Below, piece by piece: positions 44,980 to 64,000 of a stretch of DNA of 64,000 nt; position 1 is the first letter of the stretch; every line of letters begins with the position of its first letter. The notes beneath the pieces were generated by a model. The model was given only the letters and a program-made list of their open reading frames with translations. It was not told the DNA's origin and did no database searches. A program made the position numbers and the translations under genes. Where the stretch lies: NCBI GenBank assembly GCA_944321125.1, contig CALUKD010000007.1, forward strand, positions 62,001-126,000, read 5' to 3'. The DNA is from Candidatus Butyricimonas faecavium (GTDB lineage: Bacteria; Bacteroidota; Bacteroidia; Bacteroidales; Marinifilaceae).

Positions 44980-45045
44980 AAAAGTTGTCTTTTGCGTAAT
45001 CCTTTTATTCAAGTTATTTGTAATAGGGGAAATTTTACGAAAGAG

Positions 45046-46261: not shown

Positions 46262-46296
46262 AGAATAAATGTTTAATTTAATTGAATTACAAATCT

Positions 46297-49200
46297 ATGA
46301 AAAAAGTTTGGGATTTGTTGTTAAATTTTTGGCAACATCGGAAATCTAAATTCTTTTTACGTATGAAAATCTCGATGATTTTATTATTGGTGGGGATTAT
46401 GCATCTTTCTGCTAGTACATTTTCACAGACGAAAGTGTCTTTGAATATGAAAGATGCGACTGTTCAGGAAATCTTTTCCAGTTTGGAGAAGATGACAAAC
46501 TACACGTTTCTTTACAAGTTGGATCTTGTTGACAAATGTGGTAGAATGGATGTAAATGCCACAGATAAGGATTTTAACCAATTGTTGGAAGATTTATTAA
46601 GGCCATTGGGATTGTCTTTTAAGATTGATGATAGAGTCGTGGTGATTACTGCTAGAGAAGATGAGGAAAAGAAAGATATGGTAATCATTAAAGGAGTAGT
46701 GAAAGATGAGAACGGACAATCGCTTCCTGGGGTAACAATTGTTTTGAAAGGTACAAGTGTGGGAGTTGCTTCTGATATGGAGGGTAAATTTACTTTAAGT
46801 GCTCCGAAACAAGAAAATCTGAAATTATTATTTTCTTTCGTTGGAATGAAGACTAAAGAAGTTGTTTGGAAGGGAGAGAAAATGTTAAATGTTATATTGG
46901 AAGAAGATTCTCAACAGATGGATGAGGTTGTTGTTACGGGGTACCAAACTGTTAATAGACGAGATATGGTGGGATCTTATACGACAGTGAGAGCGGAAGA
47001 TATTATTATGCCGGCCTATACTTCAATTGACCAGATGTTACAAGGGCAGGTTGCCGGAATGGTTGTGATGAATACGAGTTCGCGTGTCGGTACGAGTCCT
47101 AAAATTAAAATTCGGGGAACAACGACTATTTTAGGTAATCAATCTCCAATTTGGGTGGTTGATGGTATTATTCAGGAGGATCCGATAGAATTAGAGGCAT
47201 CCACATATATGACACAAGATTTGAAAACAATTATTGGTAGTCAGATATCGTGGTTGAATCCGATGGATATAGAAACAATTACAGTGTTGAAAGATGCTTC
47301 TGCAACAGCTATTTATGGTTCTAAGGCTTCTAATGGAGTAATTGTAATCACAACGAAAAAAGGTAAAGTGGATCGTTTGACAGTTAATTATACTGGGAAT
47401 GTATCAATAAATTCAAAACCGAATTATGGTCAATTCAATTATATGAATTCTCAGGAGAGGATTATCTTTTCCCAAGAGGCATTTAATGCCGGTGCTTTTT
47501 ATTTGGAAGAACCATTAATGCAACCTTATACTTATGAAGGGGCCATGCAAATGTTTTTGCAGGGAGAACTTAGTAGGGATGAGTTTAACGAACGAAAAAC
47601 GTATCTAGAATCAATAAATACAGATTGGTTTGATTTGTTGACCCAGTCCGCAGTAAGCCAGAATCATAATGTGAGTGTTTCCGGTGGATCTGAAAAAGTT
47701 ACGTATAATATCTCTGCTGGATACAGTAATTCGCTTGGACAGGAAATAGGAAATAGTAGTGAGAAATTGACAGGAAGAGTTGCTGTTGATGTGCGCTTGA
47801 GAGAAAATTTGCGAATTAGTGCAAATGTGAATGGAAATACAGGTATTAATAAAGCATTTGGAGAGGGAGTGAATCCCATGGGGTATGCAACAAGTACAAG
47901 TAGGGCTATACCTGCTTACGATGAGAATGGTGATCCATTATTTTATAGAGAAAGAGCGGGATATGTTTATAATGAAAATGTAACCTCTTTAGGATATAAT
48001 TTTGAAAATGAGAGAGATAATAGTGGGTCAAGGGTGGAGAATACATATTTTTTTTCTGCATTGAATTTTAGTTGGGATATAGTAGATTGGTTAAGATATG
48101 AATTTAGTGGCGGTTATACACGTAGCCAAACTAATAATGAATCTTGGGCTTTAGAGAAAACTTTTAAAATTGCAAGGGAATATAGAGGATATGATTATAA
48201 TGCGGTAGATCCGGGAAGTGCAGAATTTAAAGCAGCAATCATGCCTTTTGGAGGAGGATTGTTTACTTCCGATGCTTTGCAGAGTTCTTATAATATTCAG
48301 AATAAATTATTGATATCAAAGTCATTTAATGAAGATCACCGTCTTAACGTAATGTTAGGTATGGAGATACGTTCTTCTCGGGTGAAAAATAATTCAAATA
48401 CTGTGTATGGATATGCACCAGACCGGGGAGAAAAAATTATTAAACCGACTTATCCTGAAAATATTGTACCTATTACGGGTAATGTAAATGAAAACTGGGG
48501 AATTTTAGAGGGTTTATACCAAGGTCGGTGGAGTCGGAACAAAAAAACAGTTAATTATCTATCGTTTATTGATGTTATTGTGTATAAAGATGGATTTTAT
48601 TTATATATGTGATTTGTAGGTGATTATGTTTTAGAGAATATAAATAATATATCTAATTTACTACTATTTGATGGATCTTAATAAACGATCGTTTTTTGCA
48701 ACAATGGCGTATTCTTTAAAGAATCGTTATGTATTTAACTTTTCAATTCGTAATGATGTTTCAAATCGTTTTGGACAGGATGTTAACCATCGTATAGATC
48801 CGACTTATTCATTTGGATTGTCATGGAGGGTAATGGAAGAACCGTTTTTTACAAGGGTGACCTCATGGTTGAATGCCTTAAATTTACGTTTAACTTACGG
48901 AATTCAAGGAAATGCTCTTACCCGGGTCGGACCGGATTTAACTCTTATTCAAGGTTCTGTTGTAGATGTTTATAATCAATTTGCATCAATAATTGCATCT
49001 ATACCTAATCCAAATCTATCTTGGGAAAAAACACATACATTTGATTTTGGTGTTGATTTTGAGTTGTTTAAAATGTTTACAATGACATTTGATTATTATT
49101 TGAGAAGTTCTAATGCAGTTGTTTCTCAAGATTTAGCTTATGAGTATGGGATTCCAACAATGCAATTAAACGGAGGAAAGATTCAGAATAGTGGTGTAGA

Positions 49201-50032
49201 ATTTACAGTTAGTTTTACTCCTATACAGCGTAAAGATTGGGCTTTGAGCGTTTCTTTGAATTCTTCTAAGAATTGGAATGAGGCTAAAAGTCAGCAATAT
49301 GCAGCTAAAAGAGGAGAAATGTTAACCGGATCAAGTGATAAAATTTTGAAAGAAGGTTATCCGCTTACGGGTTTCTGGTCATATTCTTTTGCTGGATTGA
49401 GTCCGGAAGATGGAAGGCCTTTGTTTAATTATTTAGATGTTCCGGAAGATAAAAGGGATTCTAATATAGATCCGTCGACTTTTTTGGTATATTCTGGAGA
49501 AACAGAGCCGGCTTTCACTGGAGGGTTGAATTTGAGCTTACGTTATAAAAATTTGTCTTTATCTTCAAGTTTCGCCTTGTTGTTAGGTGCTAAAAAGCGT
49601 TTGCCATCTCCTTATGAACCATTTAATTATGGTGTTTATATACCTAAAGAAACGGATAATTTGAGTAAAGATTTGAATAAAAGGTGGAAAAAACCCGGAG
49701 ATGAGGAACACACAATTATACCGGGATTTGTAACATCGCAACAATTTTCACTTACCTTGCCGGATAATGGTACTGAGTACTGGATGGATGCTTGGGCAAA
49801 ATCGGATGCCATGGTGGTAGACGCTTCTTTCTTCAGATGTCGCCAACTGACATTGTCTTGGAATATGGGACAAGAGTTATGTAAAAAGATAGGAATTAAG
49901 AGCTTAGGTCTAAGTGCTAGTGTCGACAATGTATTTGTTATTGCAAATAAGCGTTTTAATGGTTTTGATCCTGAATTAGGTGATAGTGTACAACCTAAAA
50001 ACTATTCATTTGGAATAAATGTTGGATTTTAA
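46297..50032 (+). pseudogene. SusC/RagA-type TonB-dependent transporter with STN domain, interrupted
   Basis: Outer-membrane importer. Fragment 1 (46297-48612; ATG 46297, the upstream TTG is rejected) has a signal peptide, an STN signalling domain (residues 45-125), a carboxypeptidase-regulatory-like domain (GVVKDENGQSLPGVTIVLKG), TonB box/plug (MDEVVVTGYQ, SPIWVVDGIIQ) and the first barrel half, ending in a stop. Fragment 2 (48671-50032) is the second barrel half. Deleting 127 bp (48563-48689) joins them in frame as ...NYLSFFATMAYSLKNRY..., 1202 aa. Loss of function is expected unless fragments complement. Confidence 0.85.
48561..48689. mobile_element. 127-bp MITE-like insertion in susC
   Basis: A 125-bp element bounded by terminal inverted repeats CGTTTATT (48563-48570) and AATAAACG (48680-48687), flanked by AT at 48561-48562 and 48688-48689, a probable 2-bp target duplication. 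Including the flanks the inverted match is 10 bp. Removing 127 bp restores the frame and the SusC consensus. No transposase is encoded. It is very A/T rich, with stops in all frames. Confidence 0.7.
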
Positions 50033-50043
50033 AATGTAATAAG

Positions 50044-51603
50044 ATGAAATATTTTTTACTTGTTATTGTAACCGTGGGATTATTCTCTTCGTGTTCTGAT
50101 TTTTTGGAACCTCAATCTCAAAGTGAATATGTTCCTCAAGATGCCGTCTCGTTAAATGAGATGCTTTTGGGAGAAGCTTATCCTCAGGCAGGTTCTCCTG
50201 CAGCAATTATGGATATACTCTCTATTTTAGATGACGATATTTGTTGTACGGATACACTTGGAGGGGTTATCGGTATAAATGATGATCGGGATTTTATTGC
50301 TTTGAAAGCGGCATTTTCTTGGCAGCCGAATTTTTGGACTGTGATGAAAGAAAATTCTGATTTATATGAAAATTATTGGGAGACTTTTTATCAATTCATT
50401 TTAGGAGCTAATGCTGCTTTGGATTATATTGATGGGGTTTCAGGTACTGTCGAGGAAAAAAACTTAGTAAAAGCTCAGGCATATGCTTTACGTGCATTTT
50501 ACTATTTTCAACTGGTGAATCTTTTCGGAGAACCTTATAATTATAATAAAGATGCGTTGGGGGTGCCATTAAAATTAACCAGTGCAATGGAAAATAAAGA
50601 ATTGCCAAGGAACACGGTAAAAGAAGTATATGATCAGGTTTTAGAAGATTTGACCGAAGCTGAAAAAATGTATGAATCTTTACCGGAAAATATGCAATTC
50701 CGACGTGACTATAGAACGAATCTTCCTATGGTACAGTTATTAAGATCTAGGGTACTTTTATATATGGAAGATTGGAAAAATGCTGCTATTTATGCGCAAA
50801 AAGTGATTGATAATGAGAATTTTTCATTAATAGATTTGAAGTCTTTACCTGCAAAGACGGAACAACAGCCTTATTATAATTTTATTTCAATGGAAAGTTC
50901 TTCAGAATGTATATGGGTTTTTGGAAATATTGATAGTTATTTAAATCTTTTAGATATAAATTTAACAGTGTTGGAAGATCCCTCGAATCCATTAGGGGAA
51001 TCAAGATATTTTTATAACCAATTTAATGCATCTCCAGAGTTATTGGGGGCTTATGTGGAAGGTGATTTGAGAAAAGAGAATTATATTTTGAAAGGTCGAA
51101 ACAAGGAACAAATAGGTAATAATCAGGTAATTATTCATCCAGATGGTTATTATCCCTATGGAAAATTTGCTATAAGTTCAGAATATGCAGCTGTTGTTGG
51201 AAATGACTTTGCTTATGCTTTTCGTTTGTCAGAAGCTTATTTGAATCTGGCAGAAGCAGCAGCAAATGATAATGATCCGGAAACAGCGTTAAGTGCATTA
51301 AATACGTTACGTTCCTATCGATTTGAAGAAGGGGTTGAGGAAGTTTCGGGAATTACCGGGGATGCTTTGATTGAACGAATTCGTCTAGAACGTCGTTTGG
51401 AGTTGTGTTATGAGGGGCATCGGTGGTTTGATTTACGTCGTTATGGTATGCCTTCTTTTTCTAGGACTTGGAAAGTTGGGGGTGTTACAGTCCAAACTTA
51501 TCAGTTGCAGGAAAAAGATCCGTCTTATACATTACCTATTCCACAAGATGTATTGGATCGCAATAGAAATCTAGAGCAAAATAAGTTAGCTAATCCTAGG
51601 TAG
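50044..51603 (+). CDS. SusD/RagB-type surface lipoprotein
   Basis: Substrate-capturing lid of the SusC transporter, 519 aa, lipobox LFSSC (Cys17). SusD features: the N-terminal SDFLEPQSQSEYVPQDAVSLNEMLLGEAYP, a helical TPR-rich core with LVKAQAYALRAFYYFQLVNLFGEPY, and the C-terminal IRLERRLELCYEGHRWFDLRRYGMP signature. It follows susC after 11 nt. The intact lid beside a broken barrel suggests the damage is recent. In RagAB-like pairs the substrate is peptide, which would fit the protease-like genes downstream. Confidence 0.92.
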   Translation: MKYFLLVIVTVGLFSSCSDFLEPQSQSEYVPQDAVSLNEMLLGEAYPQAGSPAAIMDILSILDDDICCTDTLGGVIGINDDRDFIALKAAFSWQPNFWTVMKENSDLYENYWETFYQFILGANAALDYIDGVSGTVEEKNLVKAQAYALRAFYYFQLVNLFGEPYNYNKDALGVPLKLTSAMENKELPRNTVKEVYDQVLEDLTEAEKMYESLPENMQFRRDYRTNLPMVQLLRSRVLLYMEDWKNAAIYAQKVIDNENFSLIDLKSLPAKTEQQPYYNFISMESSSECIWVFGNIDSYLNLLDINLTVLEDPSNPLGESRYFYNQFNASPELLGAYVEGDLRKENYILKGRNKEQIGNNQVIIHPDGYYPYGKFAISSEYAAVVGNDFAYAFRLSEAYLNLAEAAANDNDPETALSALNTLRSYRFEEGVEEVSGITGDALIERIRLERRLELCYEGHRWFDLRRYGMPSFSRTWKVGGVTVQTYQLQEKDPSYTLPIPQDVLDRNRNLEQNKLANPR

Positions 51604-51614
51604 AATAAAAATTA

Positions 51615-52577
51615 ATGTATAAAATTATGAAGTGGAGAAATATATTTGTATTAATGATATTTGTAACAATCTTTTCTGCTTGTTACGATGAAGATAAGAT
51701 TATCCCTTTGGAATCGGATGATGAAATTTTAAGGTACGAATTCCCTCAGGGAGAAAATGCTTGGGATCAGGATATTGTTGAAATTAGTGAACAATTTGGT
51801 GTATATTTAATTTATAAAAATTTTAAAGAGAATGATTTTAATCGTTCTTGGACGGGATCCGGATTAGGAGGGACTCTTTATTATGGTTATGATTTAACTG
51901 ATGAACAAGCTGAGTTCTCGACTAATTTTATGAAAAATCATATTTTTGCTCATTTGAATAAGGCTATTGTTAATAAAGTGTTACCAATGTATTGGTATAT
52001 GGTTTATGATTATCATACTTCCACTGAATTTATACCGGGAATGGCCTTTAAAGTTGCTCAACGTTTTTATGATGAAGGATTAGATTTTTGGGGAATATGT
52101 TTATTTTATGGGGATCCTTGTCCGTTAACTGGAGAAACAATAGAAACTCCAGAGACTCCAGAAGAATTTAGGCTTCGCCGTTGTGCGACTTTGGGGGAAA
52201 TTTTCCAAGAGTCTTTTGACAAAGGTAATTTTGTAATACCGACAGGTTTTACTGATGGATTTGATTATAAGACGGAAGTTTTAAGTAATGATGCGGACAA
52301 ACTAGATGAGAATTATTATATAATGCGTGGATTTCCGGGAATAATGGATCCAGATTTTGACGGTTTTAGTCCTGTTTATAAAAATCCGACTCCTTTAAAT
52401 CAACATTTCATGGAATATATAAAAATTGCTATGCGTTATACGAAAGCTGAATATGAAGAAATGTGGCCTTCTGCAACTTATAGATTAATTCATGAGAAAC
52501 GGCAATTTGTGATTGATTATATGAAAAATACATATGGTGTTGATTTAGAAAAAATTGCGGAATTAATTGGAGAATAG
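51615..52577 (+). CDS. SusCD-associated exported lipoprotein, unknown
   Basis: A 320-aa lipoprotein; start at ATG 51615 or 51627, lipobox VTIFSAC. I do not assign a firm family. The position (third after susC, susD), the length, and the C-terminus (YMKNTYGVDLEKIAELIGE) resemble the substrate-import-associated zinc metallohydrolase lipoproteins of Bacteroidetes, but no HExxH motif is present, so if related it has lost its active site. A stretch DPDFDGFSPVYKNPTPLNQHFMEYIK near residue 255 is the kind seen in that group before its C-terminal helix. Confidence 0.6.
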   Translation: MYKIMKWRNIFVLMIFVTIFSACYDEDKIIPLESDDEILRYEFPQGENAWDQDIVEISEQFGVYLIYKNFKENDFNRSWTGSGLGGTLYYGYDLTDEQAEFSTNFMKNHIFAHLNKAIVNKVLPMYWYMVYDYHTSTEFIPGMAFKVAQRFYDEGLDFWGICLFYGDPCPLTGETIETPETPEEFRLRRCATLGEIFQESFDKGNFVIPTGFTDGFDYKTEVLSNDADKLDENYYIMRGFPGIMDPDFDGFSPVYKNPTPLNQHFMEYIKIAMRYTKAEYEEMWPSATYRLIHEKRQFVIDYMKNTYGVDLEKIAELIGE

Positions 52578-52587
52578 AAGAAAGGTG

Positions 52588-52634
52588 CAAGATTGTTCCG
52601 AGGGATACTTTTAGTTGATTTTGGAACAATCTTG
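52588..52634 (+). other. 12-bp perfect hairpin before the DUF4369/TlpA gene
   Basis: CAAGATTGTTCC (52588-52599) and GGAACAATCTTG (52623-52634) enclose a 23-nt loop, and lie 10 nt after one stop and 8 nt before the next ATG. No T-run follows, so a leader structure is more likely than a terminator. Confidence 0.5.
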
Positions 52635-52642
52635 TGTAAAAA

Positions 52643-53653
52643 ATGAAGCATATGTTGAAATTGTATCTAATATCGATTTTATTTTTTGGAGGATATTGGG
52701 AACTTGGGGCTCAAATCGGAGTAAAAATATCCGGAAAAATCCGAGTATTGGAGCCGACAACAATGAAAGTTGAAACAATCACAGGTGAATTACTACTTTC
52801 TACAAAAATCGGGAAAGATGGTGTGTTTTCTGTTGGTCCTAAAGAAATAGAACCGGATGTTTATTTTATTTGTTTTGGAGAAACGAAGCAACCTATTTAT
52901 TTAACGAATAATCAGATAACAGTAAAGGGATTTTATAATTGTCGGAATGTGGAGAGTAGTTCTCTGGAATTTACTGGTATTGATACTTATTATGAGTTGT
53001 TAGAATGGTTACCAAAAGGGGAGTTTTCACGAGATAAGACAATTAATCCAGAGGTTGAAGGAAGGTTGCAGGGAAATATGTATAGTGCATTAGCTTATAT
53101 AGCCGATATGTCAACTTATGAGCCGAATAAATTTTTATTGGATTGTATGTCGGAGGAAGCTTTGAAGACAGCTTCTGGTAAGTGGTTGAAGCATCGGGTT
53201 GATAGTTTATACCACTATTCTATAGGGGCACCTGCGTATAATTTTACTTTTCAAGATTCTTATGGAAAGAAAGTAAGTTTGACAAATTTTAGGGGAAAAT
53301 TGGTATTAATAGATTTTTGCGCATCTTGGTGTGGACCATGTCGTAATGAAATGAAAAGTTTATTGCAAATATATAATGAGTTGAAAGGAGATGACTTGGA
53401 ATTTATCAGTATATCTTTGGATTCGAAAGAAGAGAACTGGAGGAAAATGTTGGAGGAAGAAAAACTACCTTGGGTTATGTTGTGGGATGAAGAAGGATTT
53501 GTAATTGGTAATAAGCCGAATAAAATTCAGCAGGCATATGGTTTTTATAGTATTCCTTTTATTGTTTTGATTGATAAGGAAGGACGTTTGTTGGCTAAAG
53601 ATTTACGGGGAGAACAAGTACGAGAAGAGATTCTGAAGGCTAGGGCTAATTAG
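52643..53653 (+). CDS. Exported TlpA-like thioredoxin with N-terminal beta domain (WCGPC)
   Basis: A 336-aa periplasmic protein. Start ATG 52643, signal peptide ending ...GGYWELGAQ. Residues 24-105 form a beta-rich domain resembling DUF4369 (KVETITGELLLSTKIGKDGVFSVGP), then a helical spacer, then a TlpA/ResA domain (VSLTNFRGKLVLIDFCASWCGPCRNEMKSL) with the WCGPC site near residue 230-234 and cis-Pro in FYSIPFIVLIDKEG. It presumably reduces or isomerises disulfides in imported substrate or partner proteins. Part of the SusCD-downstream string. Confidence 0.85.
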   Translation: MKHMLKLYLISILFFGGYWELGAQIGVKISGKIRVLEPTTMKVETITGELLLSTKIGKDGVFSVGPKEIEPDVYFICFGETKQPIYLTNNQITVKGFYNCRNVESSSLEFTGIDTYYELLEWLPKGEFSRDKTINPEVEGRLQGNMYSALAYIADMSTYEPNKFLLDCMSEEALKTASGKWLKHRVDSLYHYSIGAPAYNFTFQDSYGKKVSLTNFRGKLVLIDFCASWCGPCRNEMKSLLQIYNELKGDDLEFISISLDSKEENWRKMLEEEKLPWVMLWDEEGFVIGNKPNKIQQAYGFYSIPFIVLIDKEGRLLAKDLRGEQVREEILKARAN

Positions 53654-53748
53654 AGAATTTTAATATTAACGTTTTATAATCAGGGATTTAACGGTCAATA
53701 AGATAGATCGTTCGCTAATGTATTGTAAAAAAATAAAAACTGTAGAGT

Positions 53749-55449
53749 ATGAAAAAGTATTTTCTTTTATTGATGGCCAGTGTATGTATTAGTGTTGCAG
53801 AGGCCCAGTTAGTAAAACAGAATGATCAGGGACAGAAAAAACAATCTGACTTGGATTGGTATAATTGTTCTTTTGATAAAGATGGGGTGTATGGGGCGGA
53901 AATAAATAAAGCGTATGATTTTTTGAAAGGGAAAAAAATAAAAAAAAGACCGGTTGTTGCTTTGATTGGATCGGGAATGGATGTTGAGCATGAAGATCTG
54001 AAACAAGCGATTTGGGTGAATCCGAAAGAAAAGTCAGATGGAAAAGATAATGATAAAAACGGTTTGATTGATGATATAAACGGTTGGAATTTTTTAGGAG
54101 GAAAAGATGGACAAGTGATGGAAAGTACGATGCGGGAAGGTGACCGAGAATATTTGCGTTTGAAAGATAAATATGCTGATTATATTTTTGATGGTAAAAA
54201 TTATTACAAAGTTATTAATGGAAAATTGACTAAAGTTGCTGCACCAGAGAATATAGAAGAGTATAATTATTATCGAGATCAAGTGTTACCGGAATCTCAG
54301 ATGGCCGGGACTTATGGCGGTTGGATGCTTTCTTATGTGATAAAGGATTATGCAGAGAAATTCGATCAAATGATGAAAGAACGTTTTCCTGGGAAGAAGT
54401 TGACCCAAACAGAATTCGGTATTTGTTATGATCCGAAGGCTCCTCGTGATTCTTTGTCAGAAGTTGCATTTATGGTTTGCGTCATGGGGTTCAATATTTA
54501 TAAAACGAATGAATGGGAAACTGTTTATGCAGGAATTAAGAGTGGAACTCAAATCGAGCAAGCTAAAGCAGATTATGAAGCTAAAGTAAAACGATTTGGG
54601 GCTGACGGACGGAAAGAGATAGTTGGTGATAATTATTTGGATATAAATGATAATCATTATGGAAATAATGTGTTATTAACGGCTGATGCGGGTATTGGTA
54701 CGATGGAGGCGGGTGTTATTGCTGCTAAGAGGGAAAATGGATTAGGAGGTAACGGTATTATGGATCAGGCTGAAATCATGACTTTAAGAGTTGCTGCCGA
54801 AGGAGAACCTTATTTGAAAGATATTGCTCTGGCCATTCGTTATGCGGTTGATCATGGTGCAGATGTGATAATGTTGCCTGTTCAAAATACACTTTATCCT
54901 GAAAATCAAAAAATATGGATTAATGAAGCATTAAAATATGCAGAGGATAAAGGAGTATTCGTTGTAGCTCCTGCTTGGGAGGCTGCCCAAGATTTATCTG
55001 TGACAACTTACTATCCCAATCGTTGGATGACCGGGGAGAAAGAATTGACGAATTTAATGATCGTTTCTTCTTCAGATAAAAACGGTAATCCTTCGATGAA
55101 TTCTAATTATGGTGCTAAAGAGGTTGATTTGTATGCTCCAGGGATGAATATTTATTCTACATATACAGGAGATACATACCAGAATGGTACGGGACTTGGC
55201 TTGGCTGCTGCAACGACAGCTGGAGTTGCAGCTTTGATTAAAGCCTATTATCCTCATTTAACAGGTACTCAGATTCGGAATATTCTTTTGGAAACTGTTA
55301 CTTCTAGAAAAGATGTAGAAGTAGAGAAAGGGATTATCGTGGATGGAAAACAGACGCAGGATTTGTTTTTGTTTGGTGATTTGTGTCTTTCCGGTGGTAT
55401 TATAAATGCTTATCAAGCAGTGATAGCTGCAGATAAAATCACTAAATAA
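53749..55449 (+). CDS. Exported subtilisin-fold pseudoprotease (S8 family, triad lost)
   Basis: 566 aa, signal peptide MKKYFLLLMASVCISVAEAQ. The S8 fold of Bacteroidetes peptidases is clear (DVEHEDLKQAIWVNPKE, DNDKNGLIDDINGWNFLGG, ATTAGVAALIKAYYP). Each catalytic residue is replaced: Asp by Gly in LIGSGMDVEH (residue 74), His by Ile where HGTHVAG should be (IGTMEAG, about 317), the oxyanion Asn by Trp in APAWEAA (about 408), and Ser by Gly in the GTS-equivalent GLG (about 483). The frame is intact over 566 codons, so it is probably a functional non-enzyme (binding, chaperone or regulator) rather than a decaying gene. Confidence 0.85.
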   Translation: MKKYFLLLMASVCISVAEAQLVKQNDQGQKKQSDLDWYNCSFDKDGVYGAEINKAYDFLKGKKIKKRPVVALIGSGMDVEHEDLKQAIWVNPKEKSDGKDNDKNGLIDDINGWNFLGGKDGQVMESTMREGDREYLRLKDKYADYIFDGKNYYKVINGKLTKVAAPENIEEYNYYRDQVLPESQMAGTYGGWMLSYVIKDYAEKFDQMMKERFPGKKLTQTEFGICYDPKAPRDSLSEVAFMVCVMGFNIYKTNEWETVYAGIKSGTQIEQAKADYEAKVKRFGADGRKEIVGDNYLDINDNHYGNNVLLTADAGIGTMEAGVIAAKRENGLGGNGIMDQAEIMTLRVAAEGEPYLKDIALAIRYAVDHGADVIMLPVQNTLYPENQKIWINEALKYAEDKGVFVVAPAWEAAQDLSVTTYYPNRWMTGEKELTNLMIVSSSDKNGNPSMNSNYGAKEVDLYAPGMNIYSTYTGDTYQNGTGLGLAAATTAGVAALIKAYYPHLTGTQIRNILLETVTSRKDVEVEKGIIVDGKQTQDLFLFGDLCLSGGIINAYQAVIAADKITK

Positions 55450-55458
55450 ATATAGAGT

Positions 55459-56595
55459 ATGAAGATAAGATATATTCTCGGCTTGATATTATTTTTACTT
55501 GTTGCCCCGCTTTCGGCGCAACAAGTAAAAAGTGTAATTCCTTATCGAATGGTGGGAGGAAAAATGCTTGTGGACATGAATGTAAACGGTCAGGTGCGTT
55601 CATTTATATTTGACACAGGTGGACAGACGGCTTTAACGGGAGAGCTTTGTGAAGAGTTAAATATTGCGGTAGTGGATTCTGTGAATGTAACGGATGTAAA
55701 TGGTAAAGAAATAGGATTACCCAGAGTTGCCATTAATAGTTTATTAACCCCAGATGAACGGATTAACTTTTCGGGTGTGCCAGCAATGAAGTTAGCTACT
55801 CCTTCTCCCTTTGAATGTTTTCATGCTGATGGGTTGATAGGAAGTGATTTGTTTAAAAATTTGATTATTGAGATTGATAGTAAGACAAAAACAATAACAG
55901 TTTGTTCGGCGGAAAAAGCTTCAGTAGTTTCTTTACGTAAAATGCTTCCTTTTTCTGGGAAAGGTTTTATGCCAATTATAACTTTACAGGCTGGTATGGG
56001 AAATAATTTGGTTGTTTTATTTGATACAGGATGTCCCAGTTTTTTATCTTTAAAAGATACGGATTACGAAAACTTATTTTCTAGTGGAGCTTTTCAGGTA
56101 ATGAGTGAAGGCCTTGGAGGTGGATCAATAGGTGTGGGTGGGATGGCAGAGACTGGTATTTCATATCGAGTAAAATTCCCTCTTCTATCTATCGGTTCTA
56201 CAAAATTTAAACAGGTAACGACTGAAACTTTTACACCTCCTTATACATTATTAGGGGTGAAATTATTGGAATATGGTAAAGTTACGATTGATTATTCCCG
56301 TAGGCGTTGGTATTTCGAAGCTTATGAACAAGAGTTTGATCTTACAAGTAAACATTATAACGTGAATTTGCAGGTGAAAGATGGAGATTTGGTTATAGCG
56401 ACTGTATGGTCTGCCATGAAAGGTGTTGTAGAAGTTGGGGATAAGGTGGTGAAAATTAATGGTAAACCTACGAGTAAATATGATTTTTGTGAAAGTATTA
56501 TTACGGGAATACCAGAGTTGAAAGCTAAGAAAAAAACGAAATTGACTGTTCTCACGAAACAGGGAGAGAAAGTGATTATATACGAAAAAGAGTAG
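55459..56595 (+). CDS. Exported bilobal aspartic protease with PDZ domain (copy 1)
   Basis: 378 aa, signal peptide MKIRYILGLILFLLVAPLSAQ. Two retropepsin-like lobes: lobe 1 (about 22-155) with active-site FDTGGQTALTG and the psi-loop GLIGSDLF; lobe 2 (about 160-295) with FDTGCPSFLSL and LLGVKLLEYGKVTID. A C-terminal PDZ-like domain (about 300-378; GVVEVGDKVVKINGKPTSKYD) follows. Both DTG triads are complete, so it should be an active peptidase in the periplasm or at the surface. Starts 9 nt after the pseudo-subtilisin gene. Tandem duplicate of the next gene. Confidence 0.85.
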   Translation: MKIRYILGLILFLLVAPLSAQQVKSVIPYRMVGGKMLVDMNVNGQVRSFIFDTGGQTALTGELCEELNIAVVDSVNVTDVNGKEIGLPRVAINSLLTPDERINFSGVPAMKLATPSPFECFHADGLIGSDLFKNLIIEIDSKTKTITVCSAEKASVVSLRKMLPFSGKGFMPIITLQAGMGNNLVVLFDTGCPSFLSLKDTDYENLFSSGAFQVMSEGLGGGSIGVGGMAETGISYRVKFPLLSIGSTKFKQVTTETFTPPYTLLGVKLLEYGKVTIDYSRRRWYFEAYEQEFDLTSKHYNVNLQVKDGDLVIATVWSAMKGVVEVGDKVVKINGKPTSKYDFCESIITGIPELKAKKKTKLTVLTKQGEKVIIYEKE

Positions 56596-56598
56596 GAT

Positions 56599-57768
56599 AT
56601 GTTAAATATACAATTCAAAGTTTTTTTGTGTAGTATTTTCATGCTTTTTTTTGTACATGGATTTACTCAACAACAATCGGTTAAACGGGTTTGTGATACG
56701 ATTCATTATGAATTTATTCAAGGAAAAATTGTTATTCCGGTAGTTGTGAATGGGGTGAAGGTAAAATATATTGTGGATACGGGTGGCCAGACAGGGACTG
56801 ATTGGGAGTATGTGAAGAAAATGGGTGGAGTTGCTACGGGGGCGTCCAATTCAATATCTGATCATAATGATATTAAAGAACTTTATCAGATAGCAGAAGT
56901 ACAAAATGTACAGCTAAGTCCGAATTATACTTTAAGTAAGATGAAAACGATGGTTTTTCCTATTATCGGAGGATTTAGAAATATAGGAGCTGTTGGAATT
57001 TTAGGTGGAGATGCTTTTGCTCAATCTGTGATTACTTTTGATGCAAGGGAACAAATTATGGTTATAAATTATCCTTATCGTCCAGATCGTTTGAAAATTA
57101 CGGATGGTGTTAAAATGTTTCCGGGAACTACGCATCATTCTATTCTTAACGTAAATTTAGGTGGAATTGAGAAACAAGTGTTGTTTGATACAGGTGCTGG
57201 TGGATTTCTTTTGTTGAAGAGTAATGATTTTAAAGATATAGAAGCTGCAGGGAAGGGAGAGAAAACAGCACGTGGTTTTGGAATTAACGGTGTCGGGTTA
57301 GAAGGATTGAGTCATCCAGTGGAGATGAATAAAGTTAATGTGAAAGAAATGACTGTTTTGGGTAAAAAATTTACTAATGTCGGGAGTATTATTTCGGATA
57401 AGTCAACAACAATCGTAGGGGTTGATTTGCTTAATTATGGAAAAGTCGTTATTGATTATATGCGAAATCGATTTTATTTTTTCCCTTTTGATACTGAAAT
57501 TGTAGATATGGGAGGAGCACCTAAAACTTGGAATGTAAGTATTTTACCGGCCAATGAACGTTTTGAAATTACTACCGTGTGGGATACTATGAAAGATGTG
57601 GTAACTTTTGGAGATCAGGTGGTGGATATTAACGGTACGGATATAACAGGATTCCCGATGAGTCAGCCAGCTGTGGATAGTGTAATGAATGCTATAAAAG
57701 GTGACACTGCTTATATTGTTGTATTAAGGGACGGGAAAAAGAAAAAAATAGAAATTAGAAGAGAATAA
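56599..57768 (+). CDS. Exported bilobal aspartic protease with PDZ domain (copy 2)
   Basis: 389 aa, starting 3 nt after copy 1 with a signal peptide (FLCSIFMLFFVHGFTQ). Same layout: lobe 1 VDTGGQTGTDW with psi-loop GILGGDAF, lobe 2 FDTGAGGFLLL with IVGVDLLNYGKVVID, then a PDZ-like domain (VVTFGDQVVDINGTDITGFP). Both DTG motifs are intact. It has diverged strongly from copy 1 outside these motifs, suggesting different substrates or a paired role. No close family assignment beyond retropepsin-like plus PDZ. Confidence 0.85.
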   Translation: MLNIQFKVFLCSIFMLFFVHGFTQQQSVKRVCDTIHYEFIQGKIVIPVVVNGVKVKYIVDTGGQTGTDWEYVKKMGGVATGASNSISDHNDIKELYQIAEVQNVQLSPNYTLSKMKTMVFPIIGGFRNIGAVGILGGDAFAQSVITFDAREQIMVINYPYRPDRLKITDGVKMFPGTTHHSILNVNLGGIEKQVLFDTGAGGFLLLKSNDFKDIEAAGKGEKTARGFGINGVGLEGLSHPVEMNKVNVKEMTVLGKKFTNVGSIISDKSTTIVGVDLLNYGKVVIDYMRNRFYFFPFDTEIVDMGGAPKTWNVSILPANERFEITTVWDTMKDVVTFGDQVVDINGTDITGFPMSQPAVDSVMNAIKGDTAYIVVLRDGKKKKIEIRRE

Positions 57769-57778
57769 GAGAATGTCT

Positions 57779-57799
57779 ATTTATGATTTGTAATTTATG
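57779..57799. repeat. Heptamer repeat supplying a start codon
   Basis: ATTTATG, ATTTGTA, ATTTATG in register. The ATG ending the third unit (57797-57799) is the initiation codon of the next gene. Confidence 0.55.
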
Positions 57800-59071
57800 A
57801 TTAAGAAGAGTTTGATAATACTTGGGTTGTGTTTGGTTGGTGTGATGACATGGGCCCAGTCGAAGAATACCTCGGTAGAAGTGAAAGATTACCGGGAGGT
57901 TGATGGTAAAATTATATTAGAGATGGTTGTGAATGGGGTGATTGCGGATTTTGCACTGGATTTAGCTGGTCATAATGCAATATTGCCAGAGTATGTGGAG
58001 AAGTTGAAGATTGATCCTAATGTGGCAGGAGATTTTCGTTATGATTCGTTTCAATATAAAAAAGTTCCGGTTGAGAAATCTGTAAAAATTGAAAGTATTT
58101 CTTTTGGAAATAGTGTGTTCGGGAATGAAGTTGCCGCATTTGTGTTAAAAGATGCATCTTATTTACGAAAATTAGGTGTGGCCGGAGTGATTGGTAGTTC
58201 ATTGTTTAATAATGTCGTACTAACGATTGATTCAAAAAGGAAAAAAATTACGATGAGCAACCCTTATCGTCCCTCTTATATGAAACTGGATCATCGTTCC
58301 AATATGGAGTTAATTACAGCTTCCGGGGTGGTTTGCCCCGTTGTATTGGATGGGGTAACTTATCCGTTATTATTAGATACGTGGAACGATGGAATGGTTA
58401 CTTTAAATACGGCAGATTTTGCTAAACTGAATGGAGAGGATGGAAAAGAAGTAAAAGTTTATGAAGGGTATACTGATACCGGAGTATCCGCAAGAAGTAA
58501 AATTGTTGGGGAATGTCGTTTTGTGAAAAGTGATTTCTCAAATATTGCCGTTGCTGAGAATGGAACGTTACCTCGTTCGATATTAGGAAACGGTGTTTTG
58601 AAGAAAGGTTTACTTTCCATTGATTATGGAAGGAGAAAAGTATATTTCCAGCCGTTTGATCTAACCGAGGTAAAAGATGAGATACATGGGGCGGATGATG
58701 TAAAAGTTGAAGCTGGTAAATTGAATCCGATAACCCGGGAATATTTTTTAGAACATATTTATGATTATCGGAAAGATAAGGAGTTTGTGTTTAAAGGAGA
58801 CAAACCGGTTGTAATTGATTTTTGGGCTACTTGGTGTGGACCTTGTATGCGTCTAATTCCTGAACTGGAAAAGATGGCAGAGAAATATAAAGATCAGGTA
58901 ATATTTTTGAAAGTAAATGCTGATAAGGAAAAAGAGTTGTGTGGAATGTTTAATATTGTCGCTTTACCGACTTTGTTTTTTATTCCGGTGGGAGGAAAGC
59001 CTATTATAGAAATGGGGGCTACTCCGGAAAAGTTTGTTGAAATAATAGAAAATCAGTTGTTAAAAAAATAA
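57797..59071 (+). CDS. Aspartic-protease-like protein with altered DTG motifs fused to a thioredoxin domain
   Basis: 424 aa, signal peptide MIKKSLIILGLCLVGVMTWAQ. Residues 25-295 align in layout with the two preceding bilobal proteases (psi-loops GVIGSSLF and ILGNGVLKKGLLSID are kept), but the catalytic triads read DLAGH and DTWND instead of DTG, so activity is doubtful although both Asp remain. In place of the PDZ domain is a thioredoxin domain (about 315-424): VVIDFWATWCGPCMRLIPELEKMA and cis-Pro ALPTLFF. The fusion physically couples a protease-like clamp to a disulfide reductase. Confidence 0.85.
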   Translation: MIKKSLIILGLCLVGVMTWAQSKNTSVEVKDYREVDGKIILEMVVNGVIADFALDLAGHNAILPEYVEKLKIDPNVAGDFRYDSFQYKKVPVEKSVKIESISFGNSVFGNEVAAFVLKDASYLRKLGVAGVIGSSLFNNVVLTIDSKRKKITMSNPYRPSYMKLDHRSNMELITASGVVCPVVLDGVTYPLLLDTWNDGMVTLNTADFAKLNGEDGKEVKVYEGYTDTGVSARSKIVGECRFVKSDFSNIAVAENGTLPRSILGNGVLKKGLLSIDYGRRKVYFQPFDLTEVKDEIHGADDVKVEAGKLNPITREYFLEHIYDYRKDKEFVFKGDKPVVIDFWATWCGPCMRLIPELEKMAEKYKDQVIFLKVNADKEKELCGMFNIVALPTLFFIPVGGKPIIEMGATPEKFVEIIENQLLKK

Positions 59072-59080
59072 TTGTAGATT

Positions 59081-60190
59081 ATGAAATTAACAGGGATTGT
59101 ATTCTTATTGTTTATATCTTTGAGTGGTATAGCACAACAGCCAGAGTCGTTGAAGGATAGTGTGATAAAAAAATGGGAGAATATACAACTTCCGGAAAAA
59201 GGAGCGGTAAGAACAATACTGGCTGAACGTGAGGAAATTGCTCGTTATTTAAAAATGAATGATGCACCTGCTGAAGTTTTTCAGGAAAATGGAGCTCAAG
59301 CTATTCATCGAATAGCGGATTTGTGTAAAAAAGTTGGAGAAGAGTTACAATTAAAACCTTCTGTTATCAAGAAAGTGCTAAAAGGAGTGGATTTATCGAC
59401 AAAAGAATTTCTTGCTTGTACGAATCTGGGGCTTGTTATTGAGGATTATTACGGTTTGAAGGCGGTTGCCGAAGGAGCTCCCGTGGGAGAGGCTTGGGGT
59501 AGTATGTGGTTTAATACTACGGTGGAGACGATAGGTAATGAATATGATTATTCAAGGTATCGTCAAATACTTGAATTGAATAATCCAGAATTGTCGCTAG
59601 CTTATTTATCTTGTTTGAAATCTGTTTTTCGGTATAATGGTTACACTAAAGGGTTAGACGAACTTCGACCATTATTTGAAAAAAATATGCCGGAAGGAGA
59701 ATTGAAAGATGAAATTAATAAGTTATACGAGAGTTATGCCCATTTGAAAGAGGGAAATGTAGCTCCGGCGTTTACGTTGAAAGATTTTAGGGGTAAAGAA
59801 CATTCTTTGGCTGATTACAAAGGAAAAGTTTTGGTGGTAGATGTATGGGCTACGTGGTGTGGAGGATGTATCGCTAAATTACCTAAATACATGGAAATGA
59901 GTGAAAAGTATAAAGATAGGGATGATATTGAATTTATAACTATTTCAATAGATGATAAAGGAGTTTATAATAGTTGGAAATATGCTTTACCGCGCTTGAA
60001 ACTAATGGGAATGACGAATTTATTAGCTTCTGAAGGAGAGTGTACTTTTCAAGAAGATTATAATATTACGGGGATACCTCGTTATTTTCTGATTGATAAA
60101 GAAGGGAAAATTGTTTCTGTTTATGCACCGACGCCTGGAAAGGATTTTGAAACGTTGATTAATAGAACACTGAAAAATAGTAATGATTGA
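59081..60190 (+). CDS. Exported TlpA-like thioredoxin with helical N-terminal domain (WCGGC)
   Basis: 369 aa, signal peptide MKLTGIVFLLFISLSGIAQ. Residues 25-225 are a helical domain without recognised homology (EREEIARYLKMND, ELNNPELSLAYLSCLKSVF), then a TlpA/AhpC-type domain (GNVAPAFTLKDFRGKEHSLADYKGKVLVVDVWATWCGGC) with site WCGGC near residue 260-264 and cis-Pro GIPRYFLIDKEG. Gly-Gly in the redox centre is unusual for reductases and may shift redox potential. Same layout as the last gene of the string. Confidence 0.83.
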   Translation: MKLTGIVFLLFISLSGIAQQPESLKDSVIKKWENIQLPEKGAVRTILAEREEIARYLKMNDAPAEVFQENGAQAIHRIADLCKKVGEELQLKPSVIKKVLKGVDLSTKEFLACTNLGLVIEDYYGLKAVAEGAPVGEAWGSMWFNTTVETIGNEYDYSRYRQILELNNPELSLAYLSCLKSVFRYNGYTKGLDELRPLFEKNMPEGELKDEINKLYESYAHLKEGNVAPAFTLKDFRGKEHSLADYKGKVLVVDVWATWCGGCIAKLPKYMEMSEKYKDRDDIEFITISIDDKGVYNSWKYALPRLKLMGMTNLLASEGECTFQEDYNITGIPRYFLIDKEGKIVSVYAPTPGKDFETLINRTLKNSND

Positions 60191-60205
60191 AAATAATGGT
60201 TAATT

Positions 60206-61036
60206 ATGAAAAGAGTTATATGGTTTGTACTTTTTTGTTCTATCATGATTATTCAATCTACTTATGCCCAAAATAAAGTAACGGAACAACAAAAGAGTGA
60301 ATATGCAAAGGGGAATCGAGATCGGGATTTTTTAAAAGAGTATATAGAAGCGTTGAAAGTTGATGGTCAGACAGAGATTTTGAATGATGTGATTGATGAA
60401 TATTTAATGACATTACCTTTTAATGAACGTTATGTGGGGGAAAATTTGTCTGATTTTATGGAGTATGTCACTCGTGTGGATGCGCGGACATTTATTGATA
60501 TTATTAAGAATTGGGAAAAACTTTCGTTAAGTCAAGAACAGGCAGATCAGGTTGCGGTAAAAGTGGATAACATGTGTAAGATGGATTTATTCAACGTGAT
60601 GATGGAAAAGGAAGAGGAAAATGGGAAAAGACCTGCTAAAGATTATACTGATTTGCAAACAATATTGAAAAAATCTAGTATTCCGATATCCGATATGCGG
60701 CGCTATATGATTGATATGTGGCAATGTTGGGGGAAAAATGATGTTTCTGGGATGATCCAAGTACTTGGAAAAATGGTTGGGGATTCGGATTCTTCTCAAG
60801 AATATGAAAAAAATGGAAATTCTCTTAGTTTGGATACAATGTTTGAAGGTGTGGTCATAGGGAATATGATGAATTATGTACTTGAAGAATGTAATCTTGA
60901 TCAATGTAGCCAAATACTTGAGATTATGGATCATGCTATAGAAAAAAACGGTCGTACAGGTCGAATGGAAATGTTTGCTAGAATGAGAGATAATTTTGAG
61001 GGAAAAAAGATGATGATGGAAATGGGAGAGGAGTGA
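60206..61036 (+). CDS. Exported helical protein, unknown function
   Basis: 276 aa with a signal peptide (MKRVIWFVLFCSIMIIQSTYAQ). I do not recognise a family. The remainder is charged and almost all helical (DFLKEYIEALKVDGQTEILNDVIDEYLM, MMNYVLEECNLDQCSQILEIMDHAIEKNGR), with scattered Cys and many Met near the C-terminus (GKKMMMEMGEE). It resembles in style the helical N-terminal domains of the TlpA-like neighbours without the thioredoxin half. Position in the string suggests a partner or adaptor; there is no evidence of catalysis. Confidence 0.7.
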   Translation: MKRVIWFVLFCSIMIIQSTYAQNKVTEQQKSEYAKGNRDRDFLKEYIEALKVDGQTEILNDVIDEYLMTLPFNERYVGENLSDFMEYVTRVDARTFIDIIKNWEKLSLSQEQADQVAVKVDNMCKMDLFNVMMEKEEENGKRPAKDYTDLQTILKKSSIPISDMRRYMIDMWQCWGKNDVSGMIQVLGKMVGDSDSSQEYEKNGNSLSLDTMFEGVVIGNMMNYVLEECNLDQCSQILEIMDHAIEKNGRTGRMEMFARMRDNFEGKKMMMEMGEE

Positions 61037-61074
61037 TTGGGAAGTAAGAATGATAATAAGCGATAAGTTGAGAT

Positions 61075-62163
61075 ATGAAGTTATTTATTGTTTTTTTAGT
61101 AATTTGTTGTGTTGGTTGTACACAATCATCACGTTATCAGTTTTGTTTAAAAGGAAAAATTGAGGGGGTGAAGTACGGAAAGGCATTCTTGATTCTCCCG
61201 GGTGATACTTCGAAGATTTTGTACACTACTGATTTGGACAAGGGAAAATTTGAAATGAGAGGTGAATTAGATGAACCGAGACAGGTCATATTAAAAGTAA
61301 ACCGACGACAGACTTATTTCTTTATGGATGGAGAGGAAATGGAAATTTCTTGTCCCTATATTTCTTTAAGTGATAAATATTTGAAAGGTGCTCCGGCAAA
61401 TGATTTGTCTGCAGTTTATAATCAACTTGTTCAAGAAGGTTATTATAAAGAATTTAATACGTTATTGGGGGAATATAAAGAATTATTGGATGCTGGCGAT
61501 CAAAAAGGGGCAGATGAGAAATTGACTCAAGCTTTGAAGATGGAAGATAAGCGTTTTGAGTTAACTCAAGAATTCGTGAGACAACATCCGGATAATATCT
61601 TTTCTGCCTATATATCTGATGTCGTGAAAGGGGAAAGTTATGAAAAAGGAAAAGCTTTATATGATTTACTTACCCCGAAAATTCAAAATTCTTTTTATGG
61701 GCAATTATTGAAACAAAATACGGATTCTCTAGCGATATCGGCGTTGGGTGTACCCTGTCCTAATTTTGTTGCAACAGATGAGTCTGGTAATAAAATTTCA
61801 ATGGATGCACAGAAAGGAGGGATTATGGTACTTGATTTCTGGGCATCTTGGTGTGGCCCTTGTCGACAGGAGATGAAAAATTTGCGGGAACAATATGCAG
61901 AGTTTAAGGATAAAGGTGTACGATTTATGAGCATATCTTTAGACGATTCGGAGGAAAAGTGGAAAAAAGCTTGTGAAGAAGAACAAATACCTTGGATCAG
62001 TGTGAGAGATGATAATGGTTGGTCTAAATCTGAGATTCGTAAATTATTCGGAATACAGGCTATCCCATTTATTGTATTGTTAGATAAGGATGGGAATATT
62101 GTTGCCAAGAATATTCGCCGGAATAGTTTGCGTGAAAAGATTTTGGAACTGTTACAAAAATAG
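61075..62163 (+). CDS. TlpA-like thioredoxin lipoprotein with DUF4369-type domain (WCGPC)
   Basis: 362 aa lipoprotein (lipobox VICCVGC, Cys15), hence anchored in a membrane unlike its soluble relatives. The N-terminal beta domain (residues 20-110, FCLKGKIEGVKYGKAFLILPGD) matches the DUF4369 style, a helical spacer follows, then the TlpA domain: GIMVLDFWASWCGPCRQEMKNLREQY (WCGPC near residue 260) and cis-Pro QAIPFIVLLDKDG. It is close in design to the 52643 gene. Downstream neighbour begins 7 nt later. Confidence 0.86.
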   Translation: MKLFIVFLVICCVGCTQSSRYQFCLKGKIEGVKYGKAFLILPGDTSKILYTTDLDKGKFEMRGELDEPRQVILKVNRRQTYFFMDGEEMEISCPYISLSDKYLKGAPANDLSAVYNQLVQEGYYKEFNTLLGEYKELLDAGDQKGADEKLTQALKMEDKRFELTQEFVRQHPDNIFSAYISDVVKGESYEKGKALYDLLTPKIQNSFYGQLLKQNTDSLAISALGVPCPNFVATDESGNKISMDAQKGGIMVLDFWASWCGPCRQEMKNLREQYAEFKDKGVRFMSISLDDSEEKWKKACEEEQIPWISVRDDNGWSKSEIRKLFGIQAIPFIVLLDKDGNIVAKNIRRNSLREKILELLQK

Positions 62164-62170
62164 GATCGTT

Positions 62171-63250
62171 ATGAAAGTGGTAAATGTTATTTGGATGTGT
62201 GTTGTAATTTGTTTTGGAGGAGTGATTTCTTGTTTTGCTCAACAGGGTACAAAGAATCAAGTTTTATTGGAACGGATTGCAAGGATATATGCTATTATAC
62301 CTCAGGATTTGAAGGCTGACGAGTTGTTGGAAAAAATTGATGAGGTAGACAAACAGGTAAATTTGTTAATTGATTCTATCTCCAATCAAGAGTTGAAGAG
62401 TAAGGCTCAATTGCTTCGTTTTAATGGATTATTGTGGAGTATGAAACAGACGGACGAGGTGATAAGAAAGGATTTGGAGAAACGGATTCATGGTTTGGAT
62501 TTGGATTCCCCGGAATTAGAATTACTAAGTGACGTTGAGGTTACTAATTTGTTGAATGGCTATTTCCAAGTGTTTATGCCAGATGCCTCTGCTGTCGAAC
62601 GGGCTACTTACGTGTTGTATAATATAGGAAGTGAAAAAGTCAGAAACTCTTATGTTCCTTTTGTTTTAATTTCTGCGTTGAAAAAGAATGGATATACTAG
62701 TGACGTGGAAGGATTAATGGAAGACATTGAACTTTGTTCAAAGACGGAAGCAACAATACAAAAAGCAAAAGAATTAAAAAATAGCTATTATCCGGTTCGG
62801 GAGGGTGCTGTAGCTCCGGACTTTGAAATGGAAGATGAGTATGGTAATCGGGTAAAATTATCGGATTTTAGGGGTAAAATTGTTTTTATTGATGTTTGGG
62901 CAACTTGGTGTGATGGTTGTGTGAAAGGGCTTCCGGCGTTTATTGCTTTAAGAGATCAATATAAGGATCGTGATGATATTGTATTTTTAACAATTTCAGA
63001 TGATGGAATTGAGTCAAAATCTCATTGGCTTAAATTTTTGAAAGAAAGAAAATATTCCGGTAAGATTCCTCATTTGATAGCTAACAATGCGAAGGATCAT
63101 TTTGTAAAAGATTATTGTATAACCGGAATTCCCCGGTATATATTGGTCAATAGAGAAGGAAAAATTGTAAATGCATGGCATATAGCTGCTAATCATGAGT
63201 TCTTCTCTTGGATGTTTGAGATGGAGTTGAAAGGTTTAGCGGGAGAATAA
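62171..63250 (+). CDS. Exported TlpA-like thioredoxin with helical N-terminal domain (WCDGC)
   Basis: 359 aa from ATG 62171 (the frame continues upstream to 62090 within the previous gene, rejected because the signal peptide MKVVNVIWMCVVICFGGVISCFAQ begins here). Residues 28-220 are helical. The TlpA domain has AVAPDFEMEDEYGNRVKLSDFRGKIVFIDVWATWCDGC, site WCDGC near residue 257-261, and cis-Pro GIPRYILVNREGKIV. The last gene of the string; a terminator follows. Pairs in layout with the 59081 gene. Confidence 0.84.
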   Translation: MKVVNVIWMCVVICFGGVISCFAQQGTKNQVLLERIARIYAIIPQDLKADELLEKIDEVDKQVNLLIDSISNQELKSKAQLLRFNGLLWSMKQTDEVIRKDLEKRIHGLDLDSPELELLSDVEVTNLLNGYFQVFMPDASAVERATYVLYNIGSEKVRNSYVPFVLISALKKNGYTSDVEGLMEDIELCSKTEATIQKAKELKNSYYPVREGAVAPDFEMEDEYGNRVKLSDFRGKIVFIDVWATWCDGCVKGLPAFIALRDQYKDRDDIVFLTISDDGIESKSHWLKFLKERKYSGKIPHLIANNAKDHFVKDYCITGIPRYILVNREGKIVNAWHIAANHEFFSWMFEMELKGLAGE

Positions 63251-63450: not shown

Positions 63451-64000
63451 ATGGAAATGTTCTTGCGTGCATTGCAAAAGGGAGATGAGAAAGCTTTCCG
63501 ATTGCTGTTTGATGAATTTTATACTGCACTTTGTCTATTTGCAGAACGTTTCCTAAAAGATCGGGAAGCTGCGGAAGATGTGGTTCAAGAGGTGTTTTTG
63601 AAATATTGGGATAGGCATTCTGATTTTGATAATTACTACAAGATAAAATCATTCCTTTACGTGGTCGTGCGGCATACGTGTTTGAATCAACTTCGTAATA
63701 AACGAGTTCACGTAGAGATTGCAGAAGATGTTGCTATTGAGTCAGATGATTTTTTTCGGGAGCAGGTTATGGAAGAGGAGGCGTATCGAATGTTTTACCG
63801 TTCGATTGAAGAGTTACCGCAGCAAATGCGGAGTGTTATTTGTTATGCTTTAGAAGGATTGAAGAATTCGGAGATTGCTAAAAAAATGGGTGTTTCCGAT
63901 CATGCTGTTCATGCTTATAAAAAAGAAGCATACAAAAGATTGAAAATCAAGATGAAAAATCATTATTATTTATTGCAAGTATTCTGTTATATACTATTTG
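63451..64000 (+). CDS. ECF sigma-70 factor (FecI/RpoE-like; 3' end at window edge)
   Basis: Alternative sigma factor, 183 codons visible without a stop. ATG at 63451 with a GAGGAG stretch 4 nt before it, an unusually good Shine-Dalgarno for this group. Region 2: GDEKAFRLLFDEFYTALCLFAERFLKDREAAEDVVQEVFLKYWD. Region 4: LPQQMRSVICYALEGLKNSEIAKKMGVSDHAVHAYKKEAYKRL. It is probably complete apart from the last few residues. Expected partner FecR and a SusC would lie beyond the window. It starts a new unit just downstream of the locus terminator. Confidence 0.92.
   Translation, partial: MEMFLRALQKGDEKAFRLLFDEFYTALCLFAERFLKDREAAEDVVQEVFLKYWDRHSDFDNYYKIKSFLYVVVRHTCLNQLRNKRVHVEIAEDVAIESDDFFREQVMEEEAYRMFYRSIEELPQQMRSVICYALEGLKNSEIAKKMGVSDHAVHAYKKEAYKRLKIKMKNHYYLLQVFCYILF

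Follow-up and report, generated by a model that had tools for sequence, protein, structure and literature searches.

Subtilisin-fold pseudoproteases are known from few cases. In Clostridioides difficile, the subtilase CspB has two catalytically degenerate relatives, CspC and CspA, and in CspC the pseudotriad consists of G485/T170/D105 (PMC6636752). In Plasmodium, PIMMS2 is a putative subtilase pseudoenzyme in which triad residues or motifs are missing in several orthologues (PMC5520436). Among nutrient uptake systems, RagAB takes up gingipain-cleaved peptides and shows that a SusCD-type system is able to transport peptides (PMC11817032), SusCD can enter stable complexes with accessory lipoproteins, as in utilisomes (PMC7618045), and in Fus/PqqL a TonB-dependent transporter is genetically linked to a periplasmic protease (PMC6793856). 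In the open-licence literature, looking for a pseudo-subtilase in Bacteroidetes and for a SusCD peptide utilisation locus, we found no paper that describes the family analysed here.

The window, meaning the whole 64,000-nucleotide stretch of DNA that was analysed, carries a subtilase relative that lacks all of the catalytic residues and is encoded within a SusCD-type locus. The genes of this locus are listed below with their coordinates, strand, and the evidence for their assignment.

44446 to 44979, plus strand: ECF sigma factor (Pfam Sigma70_r2/r4_2; a sigma-like gene lies upstream in most homologous loci)
44992 to 46209, plus strand: FecR-type anti-sigma factor (Pfam FecR and FecR_C)
46282 to 50032, plus strand: SusC-type TonB-dependent transporter with an STN domain, split (Pfam STN, Plug, TonB_dep_Rec_b-barrel)
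50044 to 51603, plus strand: SusD-type lipoprotein (Pfam SusD_RagB)
51615 to 52577, plus strand: lipoprotein with a zinc-metallopeptidase (Mx1) fold lacking HExxH (motif, profile, fold match)
52643 to 53653, plus strand: TlpA-like thiol-disulfide protein with CxxC kept (Pfam AhpC-TSA/Thioredoxin_8)
53749 to 55449, plus strand: pseudo-subtilase, S8 fold without the catalytic Asp, His, and Ser or the oxyanion Asn (Pfam, phmmer, alignment, AlphaFold2)
55459 to 56595, plus strand: AP1, aspartic peptidase with two intact DTG motifs and a C terminus that is PDZ-like by eye (Pfam Asp_protease_2)
56599 to 57768, plus strand: AP2, aspartic peptidase with two intact DTG motifs (Pfam, motif check)
57797 to 59071, plus strand: AP3-Trx, aspartic-peptidase relative (DLAG, DTW) fused to thioredoxin with CxxC intact (hhalign, motifs)
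59081 to 60190, plus strand: TlpA-like protein 2 (Pfam Redoxin; kept in four genus-mates)
60206 to 61036, plus strand: 276-aa secreted protein without a Pfam match (kept in four genus-mates)
61075 to 62163, plus strand: TlpA-like protein 3 with DUF4369 (Pfam)
62090 to 63250, plus strand: TlpA-like protein 4 (Pfam)

The SusC and SusD genes are adjacent and accompanied by a regulator, as in a SusCD uptake locus. The order sigma factor, FecR, SusC, SusD, lipoprotein, TlpA, pseudo-subtilase, one or two aspartic peptidases, and AP3-Trx was kept in about 28 loci from several families plus Pedobacter; TlpA is absent in a few of these, and single loci lack SusCD or contain an insertion. The gaps 3' of the pseudo-subtilase measure 9 bases (the spacing to AP1), 3 bases, and 28 bases, which fits an operon. 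SusC is a single open reading frame of about 1200 aa in most relatives, whereas in the window it is split into open reading frames at 46282 to 48612 and 48668 to 50032 that lie in different frames; in a tblastn search with the intact SusC of locus L117, the reading frame shifted and some 104 additional bases were present. Either a mutation or an assembly error may account for the split, and because SusC is interrupted, transport by the window's version of the locus may be impaired or absent. Another sigma-factor gene starts at the window end (63451 to 64000), so a further locus of the same kind may lie beyond it.

The pseudo-subtilase open reading frame begins with ATG and runs for 566 codons with no internal stop. 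Its leader is of the signal-peptidase-I type, ending ...AEA-Q, and the subtilase alignment begins at residue 30, placing the domain directly after the signal peptide. Since the pseudo-subtilases listed have signal peptides without a lipobox, the sequences point to a periplasmic location. The protein matched Pfam PF00082 (Peptidase_S8) at 92.5 bits (E = 3.7e-26), above the curated cut-off of 21.8, and phmmer matched it to 115 distinct PDB sequences, the matches listed all being subtilases. An AlphaFold2 model built from an 82-sequence alignment reached a pLDDT of 93.1 and a pTM of 0.90. Its best solved match was deseasin MCP-01 (3vv3; VIA Z 42.3, 312 residues, rmsd 2.1 A); Plasmodium SUB1 and thermitase came next. 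On the strength of these matches and of the confidence score, the predicted fold is that of subtilisin with a helical insert of ~170 residues (at about residues 120 to 290) between the Asp and His positions. Pfam, the model, and the leader thus agree with the earlier note, in which this gene had been read as encoding a full-length subtilisin-fold protein with a good signal peptide.

The catalytic positions were mapped on subtilisin BL (1st3) by using an alignment of 119 homologues and phmmer matches to PDB subtilases. Four of the features below replace active-site residues, and two replace glycines of subtilisin that we take to lie on the two strands holding the substrate.

53968 to 53970, plus strand: Gly74, in place of the catalytic Asp (homologue alignment, 1st3 mapping)
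54694 to 54696, plus strand: Ile316, in place of the catalytic His (phmmer against PDB, 1st3 mapping)
54808 to 54810, plus strand: Pro354, clade-invariant, at subtilisin Gly102 in the P4-binding strand (28/28 pseudo-subtilases, 0/87 intact relatives)
54883 to 54885, plus strand: Gln379, nearly clade-invariant, at subtilisin Gly127 in the P3-binding strand (27/28 pseudo-subtilases, 0/87 intact relatives)
54979 to 54981, plus strand: Glu411, in place of the oxyanion Asn (phmmer against PDB, 1st3 mapping)
55198 to 55200, plus strand: Gly484, in place of the catalytic Ser (homologue alignment, 1st3 mapping)

Neither the Asp-His-Ser triad of family S8 nor its oxyanion Asn is therefore present (G74, I316, G484, E411). 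The earlier note had the replacements of Asp by Gly, His by Ile, and Ser by Gly right, and its assignment of the oxyanion Asn to Trp was one residue off, as Trp410 occupies the position of the preceding Gly and the Asn itself corresponds to Glu411. No triad was found at other positions in the alignment, which contains no clade-specific invariant His; the sole His invariant in the clade, H81, is shared with 97% of the intact relatives. Because Pro354 and Gln379 mark clade-wide changes on both substrate strands, canonical substrate binding by the pseudo-subtilase is probably gone. By the same alignment, the surface around these strands is nevertheless strongly constrained, and two further clade-specific invariants, Glu134 and Arg137, lie in the insert helix. 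Together, Pro354, Gln379, Glu134, and Arg137 suggest a fixed partner surface.

The pseudo-subtilase belongs to a clade of 29 homologues, of which 28, including the window protein, are full length (the other being L131), with 43 to 88% identity to the window protein and members in Butyricimonas, Bacteroides, Hoylesella, Pedobacter, and Bacteroidales MAGs. Every member, including all 28 of full length, lacks the catalytic Asp and His. The Asp position is Gly in 27/28 and the oxyanion Asn position is Glu or Asp in 27/28, while the His and Ser positions vary widely. By contrast, D, H, N, and S were all kept in the 87 sampled relatives outside the clade, with the exception of a separate degenerate pair, L139/L140. 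In a quick maximum-likelihood tree calculated with the catalytic columns removed, the clade had a support (SH-aLRT) of 100, and the branches adjoining it contained intact relatives only; because of these intact neighbors, the loss of the active site is best read as derived, provided that the root of this unrooted tree falls outside the clade. The degenerate pair (D, E, D, K/R) joined the clade at a support of only 86, and it is therefore possible that catalysis was lost once or twice. The pair itself (L139, 8264 to 9892; L140, 8201 to 9832) represents a second degenerate S8 form from a related SusCD locus, with D kept, H replaced by E, N by D, and S by R or K. Its residue at position 127 is still Gly, its dN/dS is 0.07, and it possibly arose by an independent inactivation.

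Pairwise dN/dS values (Nei-Gojobori) among the pseudo-subtilases were 0.04 to 0.11, like those of intact paralogues (0.045 to 0.18 for other S8 pairs), although these values are rough, with dS >1 in several pairs. On this evidence, the pseudo-subtilases are an old, selectively maintained family under purifying selection. All six genomes of the window's genus carry a pseudo-subtilase, most with at least two paralogues, as do 4 of the 393 genomes sampled from the order, a count that takes in the window's own; in the phylum sample, the window's genome was the only carrier. Species identified by name as carriers include Bacteroides xylanisolvens, B. congonensis, B. reticulotermitis, Hoylesella pleuritidis, and Pedobacter cryotolerans. 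This patchy distribution suggests lateral transfer.

Other proteins of the locus are also relatives of proteases. The lipoprotein adjacent to SusD has an invariant lipobox Cys23 and lacks HExxH in 30/30 loci, whereas the motif is present in 9/9 genuine relatives of its family. Its profile matched that of the genuine HExxH lipoproteins (hhalign probability 98.8, E = 5.7e-17), and its predicted fold most resembles that of 4l7a, a zinc metallopeptidase (Z 13.1); the matches ranked below it have far lower Z values and are for the most part metallopeptidase folds as well. It is thus related to the TIGR04549 metallohydrolases by homology and by fold, but it scores 22.8 bits against a model cut-off of 75. 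The genus has many more lipoproteins whose matches to the HExxH lipoprotein family fall short of the cut-off (for example, L163 at G000:C2:40580-41209), and the three that were examined (L163 to L165) all lack HExxH; from these sequences, the disabled form seems common in the genus.

The aspartic peptidases next to the pseudo-subtilase were described in the earlier note as active, and their sequences are consistent with this: D[TS]G occurs at both motifs of AP1 in 21/21 copies and likewise in every aligned copy of AP2. The AP3 domain is homologous to AP1 and AP2 (hhalign E = 3.9e-39). Across the 28 loci in which AP3-Trx was found, both DTG motifs have been lost without exception, the first being of the D[LIM][ASTN]G type and the second D[TS]W. 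The AP3 domain is likely inactive, with less certainty than for the other two protease relatives because its Asp residues are kept except in Hoylesella. In Hoylesella pleuritidis (L043, 11911 to 13059), both Asp residues are lost and the thioredoxin CxxC is kept. AP3-like genes near an intact S8 gene in L136 and L138 were set aside as weak matches (<60 bits). Judged by the motifs, this locus combines intact aspartic peptidases with disabled relatives of proteases from three catalytic classes.

Between the window and locus L115, the identities of SusC, SusD, and the lipoprotein are 49, 35, and 26%, whereas those of the pseudo-subtilase, AP1, AP2, and AP3-Trx are 88, 85, 88, and 85%. In L115/L116, the SusC-SusD-lipoprotein cassette resembles those of Hoylesella L043 and of L119 to L122 more than that of the window (46282 to 52577), and the pseudo-subtilase stays 81 to 88% identical where these three proteins have been exchanged or have diverged. 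On these identities, the outer-membrane cassette is exchanged above an unchanged periplasmic module, an argument that relies mainly on one clear case, L115/L116; surface proteins may simply evolve faster.

We propose, with a probability of roughly 0.45, that in a peptide import locus the pseudo-subtilase serves the periplasmic set of peptidases and thioredoxin proteins as a scaffold or regulatory subunit. The locus would take up a protein or peptide in a TonB-dependent manner; a peptide is favored over other ligands because peptidases are encoded alongside. SusC, SusD, and the dead-metallopeptidase lipoprotein would capture the substrate at the outer membrane, the TlpA and thioredoxin domains would reduce it in the periplasm, and the intact peptidases AP1 and AP2 would cut it there. 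The partners bound by the pseudo-subtilase would be constant, with AP1/AP2 and AP3-Trx the likeliest, and it may also keep hold of the imported chain while leaving it uncut. Exchange of the cassette, together with the clade-invariant residues on the substrate strands and the insert helix, argues for a constant partner over a variable ligand. The earlier note had deduced selection for binding or scaffolding, and part of this holds: a fold that is kept while its active site is lost under purifying selection argues for a selected noncatalytic role, but simple retention of substrate binding does not agree with the altered substrate strands. More tentatively, reuse may extend to the whole locus, as an import machine in which serine, metallo, and aspartic protease relatives that have lost their active sites act as modules for capture, scaffolding, and redox presentation, arranged around one or two aspartic peptidases that still work.

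The main rival is that the pseudo-subtilase is a substrate-binding receptor or chaperone that uses its peptide cleft for the imported peptide, as a counterpart of the glycan-binding proteins of polysaccharide loci. The fold and the cleft scaffold are kept, the setting is an import locus, and the loss of catalysis would spare the ligand. However, the Pro at Gly102 and the Gln at Gly127 throughout the clade make canonical binding unlikely, and a specificity determinant would not be expected to stay so similar beneath exchanged transporters. We favor a scaffold since the pseudo-subtilase ranks with the best-conserved proteins of the locus, whereas the outer-membrane genes are exchanged, and we consider a ligand-specific receptor unlikely.

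It is quite improbable that the pseudo-subtilase regulates a cognate active subtilase, as CspC and CspA do for CspB (PMC6636752, PMC12880746). Besides this precedent, locus L006 of the same genome encodes both a pseudo-subtilase and an intact subtilase (785 to 2413). However, an intact S8 gene lies inside only 1 of about 28 loci, so that a cognate active subtilase in every locus was rejected, and genome G003 has two pseudo-subtilases with no intact 540-aa relative among its matches, only a distant 773-aa S8 protein. The paralogous locus L006 (785 to 3865) also encodes a 479-aa secreted protein that looks gingipain-like by eye, for which no family is claimed as it has no Pfam match at 1e-4. Outside the pseudo-subtilase family, L005 (G000:C12) has an intact S8 domain behind an apparent membrane anchor (transmembrane segment by eye) and a neighbor of similar architecture.

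We give as little weight to a role as ligand sensor for the sigma/FecR signalling branch. An ECF sigma factor, FecR, and an STN-domain SusC are all present in the locus, and pseudoproteases such as CspC can be sensors. However, STN-type transporters and FecR already account for sigma signalling in known systems, and we saw no feature of the pseudo-subtilase that links it to FecR. A hydrolase with a rebuilt active site is highly implausible; the Glu or Asp conserved at the oxyanion position would suit it, but the clade offers no invariant His of its own for a new triad, and residues vary freely at the Ser and His positions. Decay, sequencing error, or chance similarity, for which the interrupted neighboring SusC might speak, is refuted by the 28 full-length homologues with the same losses, their low dN/dS, and the absence of stops.

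Compared with the uptake systems described so far, the locus shares with RagAB and other SusCD systems a TonB-dependent barrel and a lipoprotein lid, but it adds several secreted peptidase relatives and thioredoxin-like proteins, and no pseudo-subtilase is mentioned for RagAB or the utilisomes. With Fus/PqqL it shares protease-linked TonB-dependent import; that system combines an active M16 protease with FusA, whereas here aspartic peptidases and disabled protease folds accompany SusC and SusD, and Pfam gave no M16 match among the ten proteins encoded at 51615 to 63250. The lipoprotein resembles the TIGR04549/PF15890 zinc metallohydrolase lipoproteins in its lipobox, fold (4l7a), profile homology, and SusC/SusD-type neighbors, and it differs from them in the missing HExxH.

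Among the bacteria with pseudo-subtilases are gut species that can be cultured, such as Butyricimonas and Bacteroides xylanisolvens, and the locus is compact and conserved; the pseudo-subtilases offer a testable model for the reuse of protease folds in nutrient uptake; annotation pipelines will label such proteins as active S8 peptidases or metallopeptidases. Like PIMMS2, the window protein has a subtilisin-like domain with missing triad residues, but PIMMS2 is eukaryotic, has a transmembrane domain, and lacks an operon context. By analogy, the best precedent for a dead subtilase that still has a function is provided by CspC and CspA, whose S8 fold with its degenerate triad is maintained and works without catalysis. 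They are members of a different subgroup, have lost only two of the three residues (CspC keeps its Asp), and act with an active subtilase, whereas the window protein has lost all four residues. CspC also has a prodomain and a jelly-roll insert; the window protein has neither, its insert is helical, and it scored 29.5 bits against the NCBIfam CspC model NF040808 (cut-off 675). Unlike CspC, the pseudo-subtilase is set in a SusCD import locus.
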